From Sporosarcina sp. FSL W8-0480 (lineage in GTDB: Bacteria; Bacillota; Bacilli; Bacillales_A; Planococcaceae), in the NCBI RefSeq assembly GCF_037963765.1, contig NZ_CP150166.1, positions 3,107,501 to 3,171,500 of the forward strand: a DNA stretch of 64,000 bases, given 5' to 3'. The notes under the pieces were generated by a model. The model did not search any database. It had not been told where the DNA came from and saw only the letters and a list, made by a program, of their open reading frames with translations. The translations under genes were made by a program, and so were the position numbers. Shown one piece after another: positions 748-10,189 of this stretch. Position 1 is the first letter of the stretch. Each line of letters opens with the position of its first letter.

Positions 748-749
748 TT

Positions 750-954
750 GAGATCTTGCACGAAAGAATGCGCTCTTCCCGGGGATTAATGAGCTCTTGG
801 GCGAAACAATGCGCTCTTCCCCGGGATTAATGCGCTCTTGGGCGAAAGAATGCGCTCTTCCCCGGGATTAATGCACTCTTGTGCGAAAGAATGCGCTCTT
901 CCCCGGGATTAATGCGCTCTTGGGCGAAAGAATGCGCTCTTCCCCGGGATTAAT
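750..954. repeat. Tandem array, five 41-bp units
   Basis: Five consecutive 41-bp units (750-790, 791-831, 832-872, 873-913, 914-954) differing at only a few positions. Each unit is itself a near-duplicate of two half units that both begin GCGCTCTT: one ends GGGCGAAAGAAT, the other CCCCGGGATTAAT. The family recurs at 2472-2592, 38008-38046 and, degenerate, around 63786-63836. It contains no sensible ORF. The array sits between a gene end and an IS256-family element. Confidence 0.95.
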
Positions 955-1061
955 GAGTCAAGTCCTTAGTCTTGTGTAAATTCCCTTTAATGTTTTCAGG
1001 TTAATATAAGACGTTACAAATATGTTAGGCAATACTGGATATGCCTACGAAACTCTATCTC

Positions 1062-1172
1062 GCAACTTTACTTGGAGAGGCGGACATGATAGCCTTGGCG
1101 GGAAAAGCCAGCCCTAACGGCTGGGTTTCCTGGCTTGGGACTCATGCCCGCAGAGGCTCCAAGTCAAGTTGC
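1062..1172. other. Long imperfect hairpin element, copy A (candidate structured RNA)
   Basis: About 111 bp that folds into one long stem-loop. The outer stem is 1062-1077 (GCAACTTTACTTGGAG) with 1157-1172 (CTCCAAGTCAAGTTGC), 16 positions with one T/C mismatch. Further in, GCGGACAT pairs with ATGCCCGC (1144-1151), and the tip is CCAGCC-CTAA(C)-GGCTGG near 1108-1124. A related copy lies at 9523-9640 behind a different transposase. Position: 19 bases beyond the stop of the IS256-type transposase, inside that element. Strand is not determined because the element is palindromic; relative to its transposase it is in the opposite orientation to copy B. Confidence 0.75.
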
Positions 1173-1190
1173 TTCACGATGCATCAAGTC

Positions 1191-2369
1191 TTACGACTTT
1201 TTAGCTGTAAACAATCGTTTATTCCAGTATTTATTTGATTCGACATAACTGATGAGTACGGCGCCAATCAACCTAAAAGCGGATTGGGTATTCGGGAAGA
1301 TCCGGATAACTCTTTCACGCCTGCGGATCTCTTCATTCAGCCTTTCTACACCATTAGTGCTTCGTATCGACTTGCGATGGGCGATAGGAAAATTCATGTA
1401 TTGGATTGAGTCTTCAAATCCCTCGTCAAGTATTTTTAATGCTTTTTGGTACTTGGGATTCTCTTCGTACTTTTCAAAGAACAGCTCTTTCAGACTTCGC
1501 ACGGTGTCCATATCTTCTGCGGCAAATATGCTTTTTAGTAGACTGATTGCTTCCTGGTTGTCCTTTTTAGGGAAAGCTTCTACGATGTTGCGTTTGAAGT
1601 GGACATTGCATCGCTGCCAAGAGGTTCCTAAAAAATCCTCTTGAATGGCTTTTTTAAGACCTTCATGGGCATCGGAAACAACCAGTTTTGGTGATTGTAG
1701 ACCTCTTGAAATAAGATGTTGGAAAAAGGAGGACCAACTCTTATAACTTTCGTTATGATCTACTTTCAACCCTAAGATTTCCCGACGACCTTCCTTGTCC
1801 ACTCCCAAAGCGATGTAGACGGCTTTAGAGACTACACGGTTGTGCTCCCTAACTTTAATGTACATTGCGTCCACAAATAAGTAAGGATAAAAGTTTGTAT
1901 TCAAAGGACGATTTGCCCATTCATTGACAATGGGATCCAGTTTCGCTGTAAGGGAGGAAACGAATGATTTTGACACACTCTTACCGCAAAGCTGTTCAAC
2001 AATCTTGGTGACTTTTCGTGTTGACACCCCATTCACAACCATTTCAAGCATGGATAGAACAAGGGCTTGGTCACATCGCGCATATCTTTCAAAGACTGAG
2101 GGAGCGAAATCACCTTGGCGAGTACGGGGAACCTTCAAAGTAATCTTTCCGATACTCATGGTAAAATCACGCTCATAATATCCGTTTCGATAATCTACAC
2201 GGTCGGCAGAACGCTCGTAGGACGCAGCGTTCAAGTACTCATCCCGTTCCATTTCCATGTATTCGTTCAGGACTAAAACGATTGTGGATTTGACGACAGC
2301 ATCAATGTTTGAATTCATCACAGAGTCTTTTAAAACATCCATATCTAGGTTAAAATTAAGTTGGGCCAT
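1191..2369 (-). CDS. IS256-family (mutator type) DDE transposase
   Basis: 392-residue transposase from the ATG at 2369, chosen because TTTGGAGGA lies 9 bases upstream; an upstream in-frame TTG overlaps that site. The catalytic triad of the family can be seen: Asp in LFVDAMYIKVRE, Asp in LVVSDAHEGLKKA, and Glu in NGVERLNEEIRRRERVIRIF near the C-terminus. Length is typical of IS256-type enzymes (about 390-400). It cuts and pastes its own element through a circular intermediate, as known for the family. The frame is intact, so the copy may be active. Confidence 0.95.
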   Translation of the reverse strand: MAQLNFNLDMDVLKDSVMNSNIDAVVKSTIVLVLNEYMEMERDEYLNAASYERSADRVDYRNGYYERDFTMSIGKITLKVPRTRQGDFAPSVFERYARCDQALVLSMLEMVVNGVSTRKVTKIVEQLCGKSVSKSFVSSLTAKLDPIVNEWANRPLNTNFYPYLFVDAMYIKVREHNRVVSKAVYIALGVDKEGRREILGLKVDHNESYKSWSSFFQHLISRGLQSPKLVVSDAHEGLKKAIQEDFLGTSWQRCNVHFKRNIVEAFPKKDNQEAISLLKSIFAAEDMDTVRSLKELFFEKYEENPKYQKALKILDEGFEDSIQYMNFPIAHRKSIRSTNGVERLNEEIRRRERVIRIFPNTQSAFRLIGAVLISYVESNKYWNKRLFTAKKS

Positions 2370-2471
2370 TTTCCATTCCTCCAAATGTTTATCGTGGTTG
2401 AAAACATTTTATCACAAGGGATGGAAAAGGCCTTTTCCTATTTACACAATTATATGGACTTAATCGATTAA

Positions 2472-3530: not shown

Positions 3531-3570
3531 ACAGTTCTGAAACGATTTTGAATTCAATGTGAACCTAACA
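3531..3570. repeat. REP palindrome, degenerate, at the 3' end of the RAYT gene
   Basis: AAACGATTTTGAATTCAATG followed by TGAACCTAAC: core and right arm of the REP family, diverged. It supplies the TGA stop codon of the RAYT gene that ends at 3554. Confidence 0.65.
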
Positions 3571-4150
3571 GCACTGAATCTTCCTTTCCTTCCTCCCCCC
3601 TCTCCCGACAATACCTCGCATATCCCCTCCCCGTCTTCTCCCACCCCACCGGCAATAAGGAAGGCAATAACTTCAAATTCAAAAACACATGGGGGCTTTT
3701 ATGTTCATAAAAATAATATTGGTAGGATGAATAGCGATACTGATCCATCGAATCGACCATCGGCTCTTTTGTTTCAATCGGGTTCCTATGTATATATGAT
3801 CCAACATTCAATAGACCGATTGGGTCGACAATCTCTTTTGAGTAATACCTGTTTTGATAAATTTGACCGACATAGTTGTATTTTTTGCGGTAATAATCAC
3901 TGTACCGACGATTGAGTCGCATCATGACTTTCCCAAGCGGAACAAGGCGTGAACGAATCAGCAGATGGACATGGTTGGACATGATGCAATACGCATACAA
4001 TTCGAATGGGCATTTGCTATTTACATAGTTCAGGTTCCTAAAATATTCATACATATCTCGTTCAGTATTGAATATGTTCTGTCGATTGTTGCCCCGGACA
4101 ATGATGTGGTAAAAGCCGTTCGGATGCCACCCCCTCTTCCTATTAGCCAT
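3554..4150 (-). CDS. REP-associated tyrosine transposase (RAYT, Y1/HUH type)
   Basis: 198 residues from the ATG at 4150 (AGGTGG 8 bases upstream; the frame extends 9 codons further without a better site). The N-terminus has the RAYT signature NGFYHIIVRGNNRQNIF; the HUH motif is SNHVHLLI near residue 60; the Tyr-rich stretch RRYSDYYRKKY before the NRY motif should hold the nucleophile; RNPIETKE follows. RAYTs are single-copy relatives of IS200 TnpA that nick REP hairpins and are thought to spread them. The final residues (LLGSH) and the stop lie in a REP copy, so the gene is directly linked to its likely substrate. A decayed second copy is at 17701-17842. Confidence 0.88.
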   Translation of the reverse strand: MANRKRGWHPNGFYHIIVRGNNRQNIFNTERDMYEYFRNLNYVNSKCPFELYAYCIMSNHVHLLIRSRLVPLGKVMMRLNRRYSDYYRKKYNYVGQIYQNRYYSKEIVDPIGLLNVGSYIHRNPIETKEPMVDSMDQYRYSSYQYYFYEHKSPHVFLNLKLLPSLLPVGWEKTGRGYARYCRERGEEGKEDSVLLGSH

Positions 4151-4170
4151 CGGCAACCACCTCGAACTTA

Positions 4171-4362
4171 TTACCATGAATCGCTGATGCTATCCGTAGG
4201 TAATCTATCGATCGCTACTGAAATGGAAGCCTCGCTGTTGGATTGGATGAATCGTTCCTGCTCATCTGAAAGCATGGCCTCTTTCTCATCCCGCACATTC
4301 GCTTCCACCATCACTTTATGCCCTTTCATCCCCTCCAGCCCAACGCTCAATACATACCCCAC
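4171..4362 (-). pseudogene. Truncated fragment resembling the N-terminus of a YifB/ComM-type Mg-chelatase-like ATPase
   Basis: 63-codon frame beginning with GTG (GTGAGG 6 bases upstream). The first 28 residues, MGYVLSVGLEGMKGHKVMVE and on, resemble the start of YifB/ComM-like AAA ATPases. The rest departs from that family and a stop follows, so most of a protein of about 500 residues is missing. It ends just before the RAYT gene start, which suggests loss by rearrangement next to the RAYT. The assignment rests on a short match only. Confidence 0.35.
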
Positions 4363-7863: not shown

Positions 7864-7930
7864 TTACATAAAAGTTAGCATCAAAATGTCCCCACATTTT
7901 AATTAAATATTAACCATGCGATAATTGAAA

Positions 7931-7972
7931 GGCACCAGGTTCTGGAACAATTCCGAATTCAATGAGAACCTA
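7931..7972. repeat. REP palindrome
   Basis: GGCACCAGGTTCTGGAACAA with TTCCGAATTCAATGAGAACC: near-consensus left side; the last bases of the right arm are lost. It lies just upstream of the IS110-family element. Confidence 0.85.
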
Positions 7973-8084
7973 TTATGTAATATAACTTCTAAAACGCAAA
8001 AAACCATCGTTTTCAGGGTATATAGAAAGTACCAATCACAGAACTTCCTTAACCCAATCCCACTACAATGAAGGAGTGAAAACG

Positions 8085-9482
8085 ATGGCTGTACAGCTAT
8101 TTAATCATAAACCGGGGAAAAATGGAAGTCATTGGATTGAACTACTAAGAAGCGGGAAGGCTCATACGATTCTCGTGGTAGCTATCGACATTGGCAAATA
8201 TACGCACAAAGTGATGATGGCAAATGTCTATCAGGATGTGGTGGTTAAGCCGTTTGAATTAGATGCTTCCCTTTCGGGTTTTCAGCTGTTGGTTGCGAAG
8301 ATTGAGGAAACATGCCAGAAGAATGGGCTGGATGAAGTCGTTGTTGGCATTGAGACAACTGCTCATTATTATGAGGATTTGGTGAGGCTTTGCCACGAAA
8401 AAGGGTATGTTGTCCGGGTGATCAACTCCGCTACCACTTCCATCGAACGAGAATCCATGTTGAACTGGTCAAAGACCGATGATTTAGACTTGGTTGCCAT
8501 TGTCCATTCCATTCTCCAAGGAAGAGGCAACCCACCAAAAAGCTTGCGGAAGGAACTGCGAACGTTAAAGAAGCTAACGCGCTTTCGCAGGGAATTGGTA
8601 TCGCAAAGAACTCGACTGACGAACCAGCAGTTTGCCTTAATGGATACCATCTTCCGGGAATTCCAAGGAAAGACCGTATGGGTGGATGGGAAAAAGCAGA
8701 AGAAAAAACCCTTCTCCACGATGGAAACCAAGACAGTTCAATATTTAATGCGACATCACCCGCACCCTGAAGATATCCTAACCCTTGGAGAGGAAGGTCT
8801 CTACGAACTTTCTCGGAAAGAGAATTTAAAGCTTAGAAAAACAGCCGTTGACTGCCTTTTGGAGTTCGCTAGAGAATCCATCTCCCAACCGAAAGAAGAA
8901 CTCGCTGCCGAATTGTATCAACTGAAAGTGACTCTTGATCTGTTAGACAACCTAAAAGAAAAGATCAGTGACCTGGAAAAGAAGATTGAAGAACTTCTCC
9001 TTCCGACTGACGGGGCTCTCCTCCTAAGCATTCCTGGAATCGGGAAAGTCTTGGCGGCAGAATTGCGTGCAGAAATTGGACCAATCGACGACTACACACA
9101 CGCTGGGCAACTGATCAAATTAGCAGGCACTAACCCCATCGTTAAGCAGTCGGGCGGGCACAAAGCGACCTACGGAGGAATCTCCAAACAAGGGCGTAGA
9201 CATTTCCGTTCGGTAGTCTACTTGGTTGGAAGTAAATGCGCGGTCTCCAACCCGGAGCTAAGGAAGCACTACTTGGCACTGATTGATCGAGGCAAGAAGC
9301 CAAGACAAGCCTACATCGCCATTGGAAACCGAGTTCTTCGATTGGCATTCGCCATGCTTAGAGACCGGCGACTTTACCAAAGTACAGATTCTGATTACTC
9401 GTTAAAAAGCATCCTTGAAAACAAGATTGGCACCCATGAAAACCGGCGTCAGTTCTGCGAAGCATATGTATTCTCATCTTAA
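8085..9482 (+). CDS. IS110-family transposase (DEDD recombinase)
   Basis: 465 residues from the ATG at 8085; AAGGAG is 9 bases upstream, while the in-frame GTG at 8076 overlaps that site. The N-terminal RuvC-like domain shows the DEDD set: Asp in VVAIDIGKYTHKV, Glu in VVGIETTAHYYEDL, and the Asp pair in SKTDDLDLVAI. The C-terminal Transposase_20 domain has LLSIPGIGKVLAAEL and the catalytic Ser region KQSGGHKATYGG. IS110-family enzymes use a bridge RNA encoded in the element's non-coding end to choose donor and target. The short 5' side and the long structured 3' side suggest the RNA lies downstream here. Confidence 0.95.
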   Translation: MAVQLFNHKPGKNGSHWIELLRSGKAHTILVVAIDIGKYTHKVMMANVYQDVVVKPFELDASLSGFQLLVAKIEETCQKNGLDEVVVGIETTAHYYEDLVRLCHEKGYVVRVINSATTSIERESMLNWSKTDDLDLVAIVHSILQGRGNPPKSLRKELRTLKKLTRFRRELVSQRTRLTNQQFALMDTIFREFQGKTVWVDGKKQKKKPFSTMETKTVQYLMRHHPHPEDILTLGEEGLYELSRKENLKLRKTAVDCLLEFARESISQPKEELAAELYQLKVTLDLLDNLKEKISDLEKKIEELLLPTDGALLLSIPGIGKVLAAELRAEIGPIDDYTHAGQLIKLAGTNPIVKQSGGHKATYGGISKQGRRHFRSVVYLVGSKCAVSNPELRKHYLALIDRGKKPRQAYIAIGNRVLRLAFAMLRDRRLYQSTDSDYSLKSILENKIGTHENRRQFCEAYVFSS

Positions 9483-9900
9483 CGCATAAAGGATAGACAT
9501 AATGGACAGAAGCTGCGTAGCGTTGCCACTTTACGTGGAGAAGCGGGCATTGATAGCCTCAGCAGGCAGAGCCAGTTCTTAATAAAACTGGCTTCCTGGC
9601 TTGGAAGTCATGCCCGCAGAGGCTCCGTGTCAAGTGACAACAAAGGAACCAATCATCGCTATTGCCTAATGAAGAAACTTGTCAAAAGCAACAAAGAATT
9701 CAACAAACATACGCATGTTTCCGGGACATTTGATCACATCGAACCGAGAACCAGAGGCATTGTGACCTCGTGTACCAGCGTTATGGATCTTGTCCTGCAA
9801 ATACGAATAATACGTGAAACGATCTCGAGTTTAGATTGAATAGGCTGTATCCCTGCAGGATGAAAACACAAGATCCTTTCGTGTCGCGTAAACATGCGCC
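9483..9900 (+). ncRNA. Structured 3' region of the IS110-family element, candidate bridge RNA
   Basis: About 400 bp with no gene downstream of the transposase. It contains hairpin element B (9523-9640) and then a long-range pairing: GGATCTTGTCCTGCA (9785-9799) with TGCAGGATG-AAAAC-ACAAGATCC (9855-9877), enclosing about 55 bases. A near-identical copy of 9722-9838 occurs at 40995-41111. IS110-family elements encode a bridge RNA in a non-coding end, so one or both structures are candidates. The element boundaries are not resolved by eye. Confidence 0.5.
9523..9640. other. Long imperfect hairpin element, copy B (candidate structured RNA)
   Basis: Homologue of 1062-1172. Outer stem TTGCCACTT-T-ACGTGGAG (9523-9540) with CTCCGTGT-C-AAGTGACAA (9623-9640); inner stem GCGGGCAT with ATGCCCGC; tip CCAGTT-loop-AACTGG. 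Compared with copy A the tip stem has changed from CCAGCC/GGCTGG to CCAGTT/AACTGG, a compensated change, while unpaired segments such as GATAGCCT and GCAGAGG are conserved. It starts 41 bases beyond the IS110 transposase stop. Confidence 0.75.
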
Positions 9901-10189
9901 TATACTGTTCTGTGATGGTGAGGTTTTTAAAAAATAACTTTAAAAGCTTTAGTTTCGTGCGGCCATTTTTCGTAAAATATATGGCTTGACTTATATTGCA
10001 TTATACGCTGGTACCCAAAATTAAATTGAATCATCTAATTTTAATCCTCACGGAGGAAATACTAACAAATAAAAATGACGAAGTGTACCAATATACATTT
10101 GCATCTATCCATAGAATTTTAACACAAAGTAGAATTAAGTATGAACATTTCCACATGAAGATACCGCAGGTGCTAAACATTTGTAGACA

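Follow-up and report, generated by a model that had tools for sequence, protein, structure and literature searches.

A portable stem-loop carried by unrelated transposons, mostly in Bacillota, as a candidate cis-acting accessory

Among short structured bacterial repeats, ERIC, BOX, bcr1 and Correia/NEMIS each have a single terminal repeat or a single sequence as their hallmark, and the bridge RNAs (seekRNA) belong to one transposase family. Folded sites in single-stranded DNA (ssDNA) include single-strand origins, primosome assembly sites and attC, the last with a GTTRRRY-type core. An insertion sequence (IS) is usually pictured as an independent transposase gene with its ends. Here we describe a hairpin family of approximately 110 nt, two copies of which lie in a 64,000-nt stretch of Sporosarcina sp. 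FSL W8-0480 (contig NZ_CP150166.1, positions 3,107,501 to 3,171,500; hereafter the window), one inside an IS256-type and one inside an IS110-type element. The structure is found across six transposase families and several types of miniature inverted-repeat transposable element (MITE), and would represent a common accessory traded by unrelated transposons.

Both window copies lie on the + strand, at 1062-1171 and 9525-9637, and score 118.1 bits (E 6.5e-31) and 112 bits (E 3.8e-29) with R1, a covariance model built from 20 copies that has both among its training sequences. They are 78-79% identical to each other, and their folding z-scores are -6.1 and -6.8, none of 200 shuffles being equally stable. 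The 18-mer CATGCCCGCAGAGGCTCC, searched across the window with up to three mismatches, has no occurrence outside the two hairpins and matches each of them exactly, against 0.01 occurrences expected. An earlier sequence-only reading had proposed that the same stem-loop stands at both sites, which alignment, folding and BLAST confirm, behind IS256- and IS110-type transposases with gaps of 19 and 41 nt from the stop codon; Pfam agrees on the hosts, and the gaps to the model edges are 19 and 42 nt. Copy 1 is antisense to its transposase (Transposase_mut, PF00872; 1191-2384, - strand; E 1.7e-132), and copy 2 is on the same strand as its own (DEDD_Tnp_IS110, PF01548, and Transposase_20, PF02371; 8076-9482, + strand; E 5.5e-23 and 1.6e-20). 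The IS256-type element spans 956-2465 (- strand), with edges estimated from the comparison of genomic copies and relatives, and the IS110-type element spans 7968-10014 (+ strand), with approximate edges set by homology: three genomic copies run from 7928/7934 to 10014/10016, and a more distant copy starts at 7968. The hairpin lies within both elements because copies of each have it in common. Five directly compared IS256-type copies share edge, hairpin and transposase, a sixth on the other strand, left out of the edge comparison, matches in hairpin and transposase, and about 2,085 bp of the IS110-type element (window ~7930-10014), hairpin included, is common to three copies. Searching the Sporosarcina genome with R1 yields 13 distinct places (21 rows, of which 8 are antisense re-reads): six in near-identical IS256-type elements, three after the IS110-type transposase, one after another transposase of IS110 type (L021/L024; L numbers denote loci) that is ~49% identical to the first, and three others.

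For the structural analysis, 229 hits were reduced to 202 unique copies by dropping 27 with identical flanks; palindromic antisense re-reads and two model hits, one in a duplicate locus and one cut at an edge, were also dropped. Filters for length and for the motifs GATAG and GAGGCT passed 115 of the 202, and a 0.80 similarity cut left 68, which with window copy 2 form alignment A5 of 69 non-redundant rows, the motif filter favouring conserved copies. The A5 consensus reads NNNCTTTACATGGAGnGGCGGGCATGATAGnCT, a variable tip, and AATCATGCCCGCAGAGGCTCCATGTCAAGNNN, and its 22-pair stem holds 93% standard pairs, a value that falls to 24-46% when the partner is slid by 1-3 columns. Fourteen of the 22 stem pairs have changed on both sides; the double-changed cells number 116, where shuffles give 32.5 +/- 7 (0/500 as high), and for each of five covariation measures the observed value was reached by none of the 500 shuffles, which do not preserve the relatedness of the copies. 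At column pair 12-139, for example, 27 GC, 16 CG, 13 AU, 6 GU and 3 UA pairs stand beside 4 unpaired rows, and descent alone would hardly yield five pair types at one position. The outer stem is variable yet paired and the inner stem and loops are near invariant; pair 17-134 of the tested structure is mostly a T-C mismatch, unpaired in 59 of 69 rows. Over the other 21 pairs G-U wobbles exceed A-C by 84 to 12, and the + strand folds more stably in 63 of 68 copies, so it is the + strand that folds, either as RNA or as ssDNA. At the level of sequence comparison the hairpin structure is thereby shown to be under selection on one strand, and the claim of selection on structure, made from the two window copies, is borne out by the covariation in A5. 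IS-resident hairpins (30 copies) have 98.4% of cells paired and the others (39 copies) 95.5% (p 0.15), and since their pairing is at least as good as elsewhere, the IS-resident hairpins are not decaying relics.

A representative transposase or reverse transcriptase (RT) lies within 300 nt of the hairpin in 77 of the 202 copies, 71 times with the hairpin on its 3' side and 6 times on its 5' side; some of the 77 matches are fragments (L137, L139, L155, L159), and as the representatives were taken from neighbours already known, the family counts lean towards those. A less biased Pfam check covered 30 open reading frames (ORFs), 30 more, and 116 of 149 listed ORFs, with the top 25 of 129 families. 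On the 3' side, orientation is mostly constant in IS256 (25 antisense, 4 sense), IS3 (23 sense, 2 antisense) and IS30 (5 antisense) and mixed in IS110 (3 sense, 2 antisense); there are also three antisense cases for IS21, two sense for ISLre2, and one antisense each for ISL3 and a group II intron RT. In IS256, IS3, IS30, IS110, ISL3 and ISLre2 the hairpin sits between the stop codon and the IS end, and in ten sense examples it begins 0-62 nt past the transposase stop. Whether matches lie beside transposases of several families was a check set beforehand, and these six IS families are its outcome. IS66, IS1634, Tn552-like and DDE_Tnp_1 (L227) neighbours were set aside as true carriers, since a MITE end of the TGTTTATTGCAAAA-like type (T1) adjoins those hairpins. 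Most IS21 cases were likewise set aside, L123 (IstB) having T1 ends and L137 matching the N-terminal part of IstA, which leaves L308 as the only possible true carrier in IS21.

Standalone copies point to a second kind of residence. Where enough flank was available, 35 of 118 are bracketed by inverted repeats and a target duplication, an arrangement that shuffling of the flanks gave for 3 of 118. The window copies sit in full IS. One type has GGCTCTTCGCTAT-like repeats and 8-bp duplications, identified visually in copies from Evansella and Paenibacillus and by script in L195, L251 and L302; we take these repeats to resemble ISL3 ends. T1 repeats come with 5-7 bp duplications, and further repeat kinds are also present. 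Given this variety of terminal repeats, the hairpin is a core common to unrelated MITEs.

Hairpin sequence barely tracks IS family. Hairpins 89-93% identical stand beside unrelated transposases, the similarity stopping within 3-11 nt of the model edges among the matches listed, and such cross-family pairs join IS3 (L263) with IS30 (L180 or L115) and IS256 (L160) with IS3 (L133). Mean hairpin identity is 0.806 within an IS family and 0.783 between families. Hairpin and transposase identity are uncorrelated in IS3 (rho 0.06, 181 pairs) and track each other partially in IS256 (rho 0.58, 293 pairs). Because of this weak tracking, and because many IS256 and IS3 relatives lack it, the hairpin is an exchangeable accessory that has passed between transposon families. 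The family-specific orientation, the 0.806 against 0.783 identity and the hairpin-free relatives likewise support separate acquisition by the two window transposons, as first proposed.

The model search also extended the family well beyond the window. With R1 at E <= 1e-3 per genome, 89 of 398 Bacilli genomes, or 57 of 145 genera, have a match, and a phylum-wide sample gave 22 of 398 genomes, some of them Bacilli again; the proposed covariance-model check has thus returned both further copies and compensatory changes beyond those in shuffles. Scanning named genomes with a 24-base pattern gave at least 119 stretches, the matches listed including Sporosarcina, Paenibacillus, Brevibacillus, Halalkalibacterium and Clostridium, all listed stretches presumably being from Bacillota judging by organism names. 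Of these stretches 115 carry a model match and four (L183, L205, L221, L232) have only the 3' arm, in L183 after an apparent IS3 transposase coding sequence and without a 5' arm; such matches are either truncated copies or signs of recombination within the hairpin. BLAST found 13 plasmid records with the hairpin, among them an Aeromonas plasmid in which it begins ~22 nt past an annotated IS3 transposase; the phage records searched held no hairpin, and the viral contigs searched held one hairpin stretch. Across the genomes, plasmids, phages and viral contigs covered, with R1 run on the Bacilli and phylum-wide samples, the host range is mostly Bacillota. On a Planococcus plasmid (L439, NZ_CP019642.1) a hairpin match begins ~11 nt past a gene pair for an AAA ATPase and a UvrD-helicase, an arrangement that we take to resemble Gabija.

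Several conventional identities were considered. A small coding gene was rejected: an ATG, GTG or TTG follows a GGAG motif, but its spacing modulo 3 is even (41/36/32 in the 109 of 202 copies that were measurable). The + strand shows no excess of promoters of its own (21/194 against 26.4 expected), and an intrinsic terminator was rejected because T-tracts behind the stem are fewer than + strand shuffles predict (16 of 191 copies; 29 expected). The proposal that the hairpin is no named RNA holds for Rfam 15, which gives no match at the gathering threshold over the whole window; at E <= 10 the best hit in window 1030-1195 is a cobalamin fragment (E 5.4), below gathering. No description of the hairpin was found in open-access full-text literature, most subscription papers lying outside that coverage. 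An omega-RNA-like guide was ruled out, orientation towards the IS end not being constant, and an attC site was also rejected, the A5 consensus having no conserved GTTRRRY-type core (no separate search for integron integrases was made).

As the structure is kept and has been acquired by several unrelated transposons in Bacillus-like bacteria, the hairpin suggests a job common to its carriers. The available portion of PMC9333248 names eight copy-out-paste-in families, IS1, IS3, IS21, IS30, IS256, IS110, ISLre2 and ISL3, and all six hairpin-carrying families are on that list. In 57 hairpin-positive genomes, the 150 best-scoring rows per Pfam family were compared with the hairpins of the Bacilli model search. 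A listed hairpin lay within 900 nt for 16 of the best 150 of 412 rve rows and for 1 of the best 150 of 525 DDE_Tnp_1 rows, though the latter domain is the commoner, a suggestive bias towards copy-out families over DDE_Tnp_1. The conversion of the figure-eight intermediate by host replication is described in the available portion of PMC7780238. In copy-out-paste-in the transposase nicks one strand and makes the figure-eight, from which host replication has to produce a circular copy of the element. In the mechanism that we tentatively favour, the hairpin on the exposed strand may load or direct this host machinery through priming, helicase loading or strand protection. The site would thus be a cis-acting folded single strand at a step common to hairpin-carrying transposons. 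Such a site would be expected to be independent of transposase family, to have no promoter or reading frame of its own, to work in either orientation, to occur in MITEs and to have a mostly Bacillota host range. We consider it a plausible reading, held with less than even confidence, that the hairpin is a portable accessory of this kind, a folded single strand of ~110 nt that would act in cis at the host-replication step of copy-out-paste-in. In its fuller form, where a transposon-family-independent and strand-specific folded site could be acquired by any copy-out-paste-in transposon, would recruit host replication proteins to the transposon's single-stranded intermediate and would pass between unrelated transposons, the proposal is rather doubtful.

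Several observations weigh against this replication-site reading. The family bias draws on a small number of independent acquisitions: the 16 rve cases, some of them identical copies, come down to about five elements, and support from IS21 is weak. The G-U excess is as compatible with RNA as with folded ssDNA. Among 30 fetched homologue loci for each family, only 1 for IS256 and 4 for IS3 carry the hairpin, the IS256 loci being one per genome and several of them cut at contig ends; another listed IS256 match (G167:C59, L129) does carry it. The hairpin is not required, since L314 and L323, which lack it, belong to genomes that contain several copies similar to them. In an IS110 relative (L110) the hairpin lies within T1-like MITE ends, which looks like a MITE insertion. 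The 1 in 30 count also leaves unsupported the candidate explanation that the hairpin is an ancestral part of IS256. As to the form of the hairpin-free elements, in L313, L315, L345, L347 and L349 the stop codon is almost directly followed by the terminal repeat, with ~50 nt from stop to IS end in L313 and L315, and L314 and L346 have longer 3' ends. The IS256 relative L314 has, on the coding strand and at the hairpin's place 3' of the transposase, another, perfect palindrome with 22-bp arms.

These data can also be read at the RNA level. Once folded, + strand read-through RNA could become the target of a host factor that binds or cleaves it, which would keep transposon and host transcripts apart or protect the transposase mRNA against antisense transcription. 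Covariation on one strand with G-U tolerance is a classic RNA signature, and both the short distance of sense hairpins from the transposase stop in the ten examples and the alternative palindrome of L314 would suit such an insulator. The lack of any excess of dedicated promoters and the shortage of T-tracts speak against it, as does the antisense position of the functional strand in most IS256 and in IS30 and ISL3, where transcription would need flanking promoters, and a generic barrier leaves the near-invariant stem sequence unexplained. We regard an RNA insulator or processing site as possible though somewhat improbable; if the function were at the RNA level, the hairpin would still be a widespread structured family without an Rfam 15 match.

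Alternatively, the hairpin may be a selfish module of MITEs whose IS copies are insertions just past the transposase stop, the only tolerated place, and whose structure serves its own movement. The MITE-like flanks of 35 of the 118 standalone copies, the T1-like ends of L110, the near independence of hairpin identity from IS family and the many IS relatives without a hairpin are what such a hitchhiker would leave behind. It is nonetheless unlikely in our judgement: the MITE terminal repeats are several and unrelated, which rules out the hairpin as the mobility signal of one particular MITE; the IS-resident copies show no structural decay; the IS256 correlation between hairpin and transposase identity indicates persistence by descent there; and the bias against DDE_Tnp_1 elements is left unexplained. 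Chance or a known repeat, such as an ordinary terminator, a REP/RAYT palindrome, an IS end or a described RNA, is very improbable, given no Rfam match at gathering, no T-tract and a hairpin common to several IS families and hence not the end of one. A candidate for a known repeat is Bhal-1, a 74-bp stem-loop family of Bacillus halodurans described, in the available portion of the paper, by Petrillo et al. 2008 (PMC2267715) and known here by description, not sequence; H. halodurans does carry the hairpin (L201).

The host elements in the window have further features of their own. The IS256-type element lies in or adjoins tandem arrays with a period of ~20-21 bp (window 749-957 and 2466-2603), and an array is present in 13 of 13 examined loci of the IS256 group (L001-L006, L029, L031, L032, L043-L045, L052), six from this genome and seven from relatives, a hint that tandem repeats may be a preferred target. 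The IS110-type copies sit in a REP-like palindrome (GGTACCAGGTTCT...GAACCTATTATGT; window 7936-7977), found bordering three copies on their left side (L022 and L023 among the loci) and shorter in L024, and a RAYT-like Y1 transposase is encoded at 3554-4177. The 3' non-coding part of the IS110-type element at 9764-10010 is ~73% conserved in a distant IS110 and, lying beyond the hairpin, is possibly the bridge RNA (seekRNA) region.

In copy-out-paste-in, the passage from figure-eight to circle is left to the host, and the hairpin, as a defined element in cis, makes it possible to ask whether the DNA itself helps. What sets the hairpin apart is that one structure is traded among unrelated transposon families. 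A 2024 review of bacterial MITEs (PMC10969869) describes, in its available portion, MITE transcripts that form stable stem-loops and names no cross-family core there. Like ERIC, BOX, bcr1 and Correia/NEMIS, the hairpin is short, structured, repeated and mostly intergenic, but it differs from such MITEs and palindromic repeats in being one covarying core of MITEs and of full IS of unrelated families. It resembles the TnpB omega RNA and the RAGATH-18-derived RNA, so far as the available portions of those accounts go, as a conserved RNA 3' of a transposon gene, yet it lacks the fixed orientation to the transposon end that a flank-derived guide needs, and TnpB is not among its listed neighbour families. 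With the bridge RNA of IS110/IS1111 it has in common a structured non-coding part, copy 2 lying in the IS110 3' non-coding region, but identity with that RNA is rejected because the hairpin also occurs with five DDE families (IS256, IS3, IS30, ISL3 and ISLre2), and ~375 nt of other sequence lies beyond copy 2. To attC, single-strand origins and primosome sites the proposed working likeness is one of shape, not of homology: an imperfect hairpin specific to one strand, whose internal loop is asymmetric and whose tip varies. No integrase or rolling-circle replicon is linked to the hairpin here.
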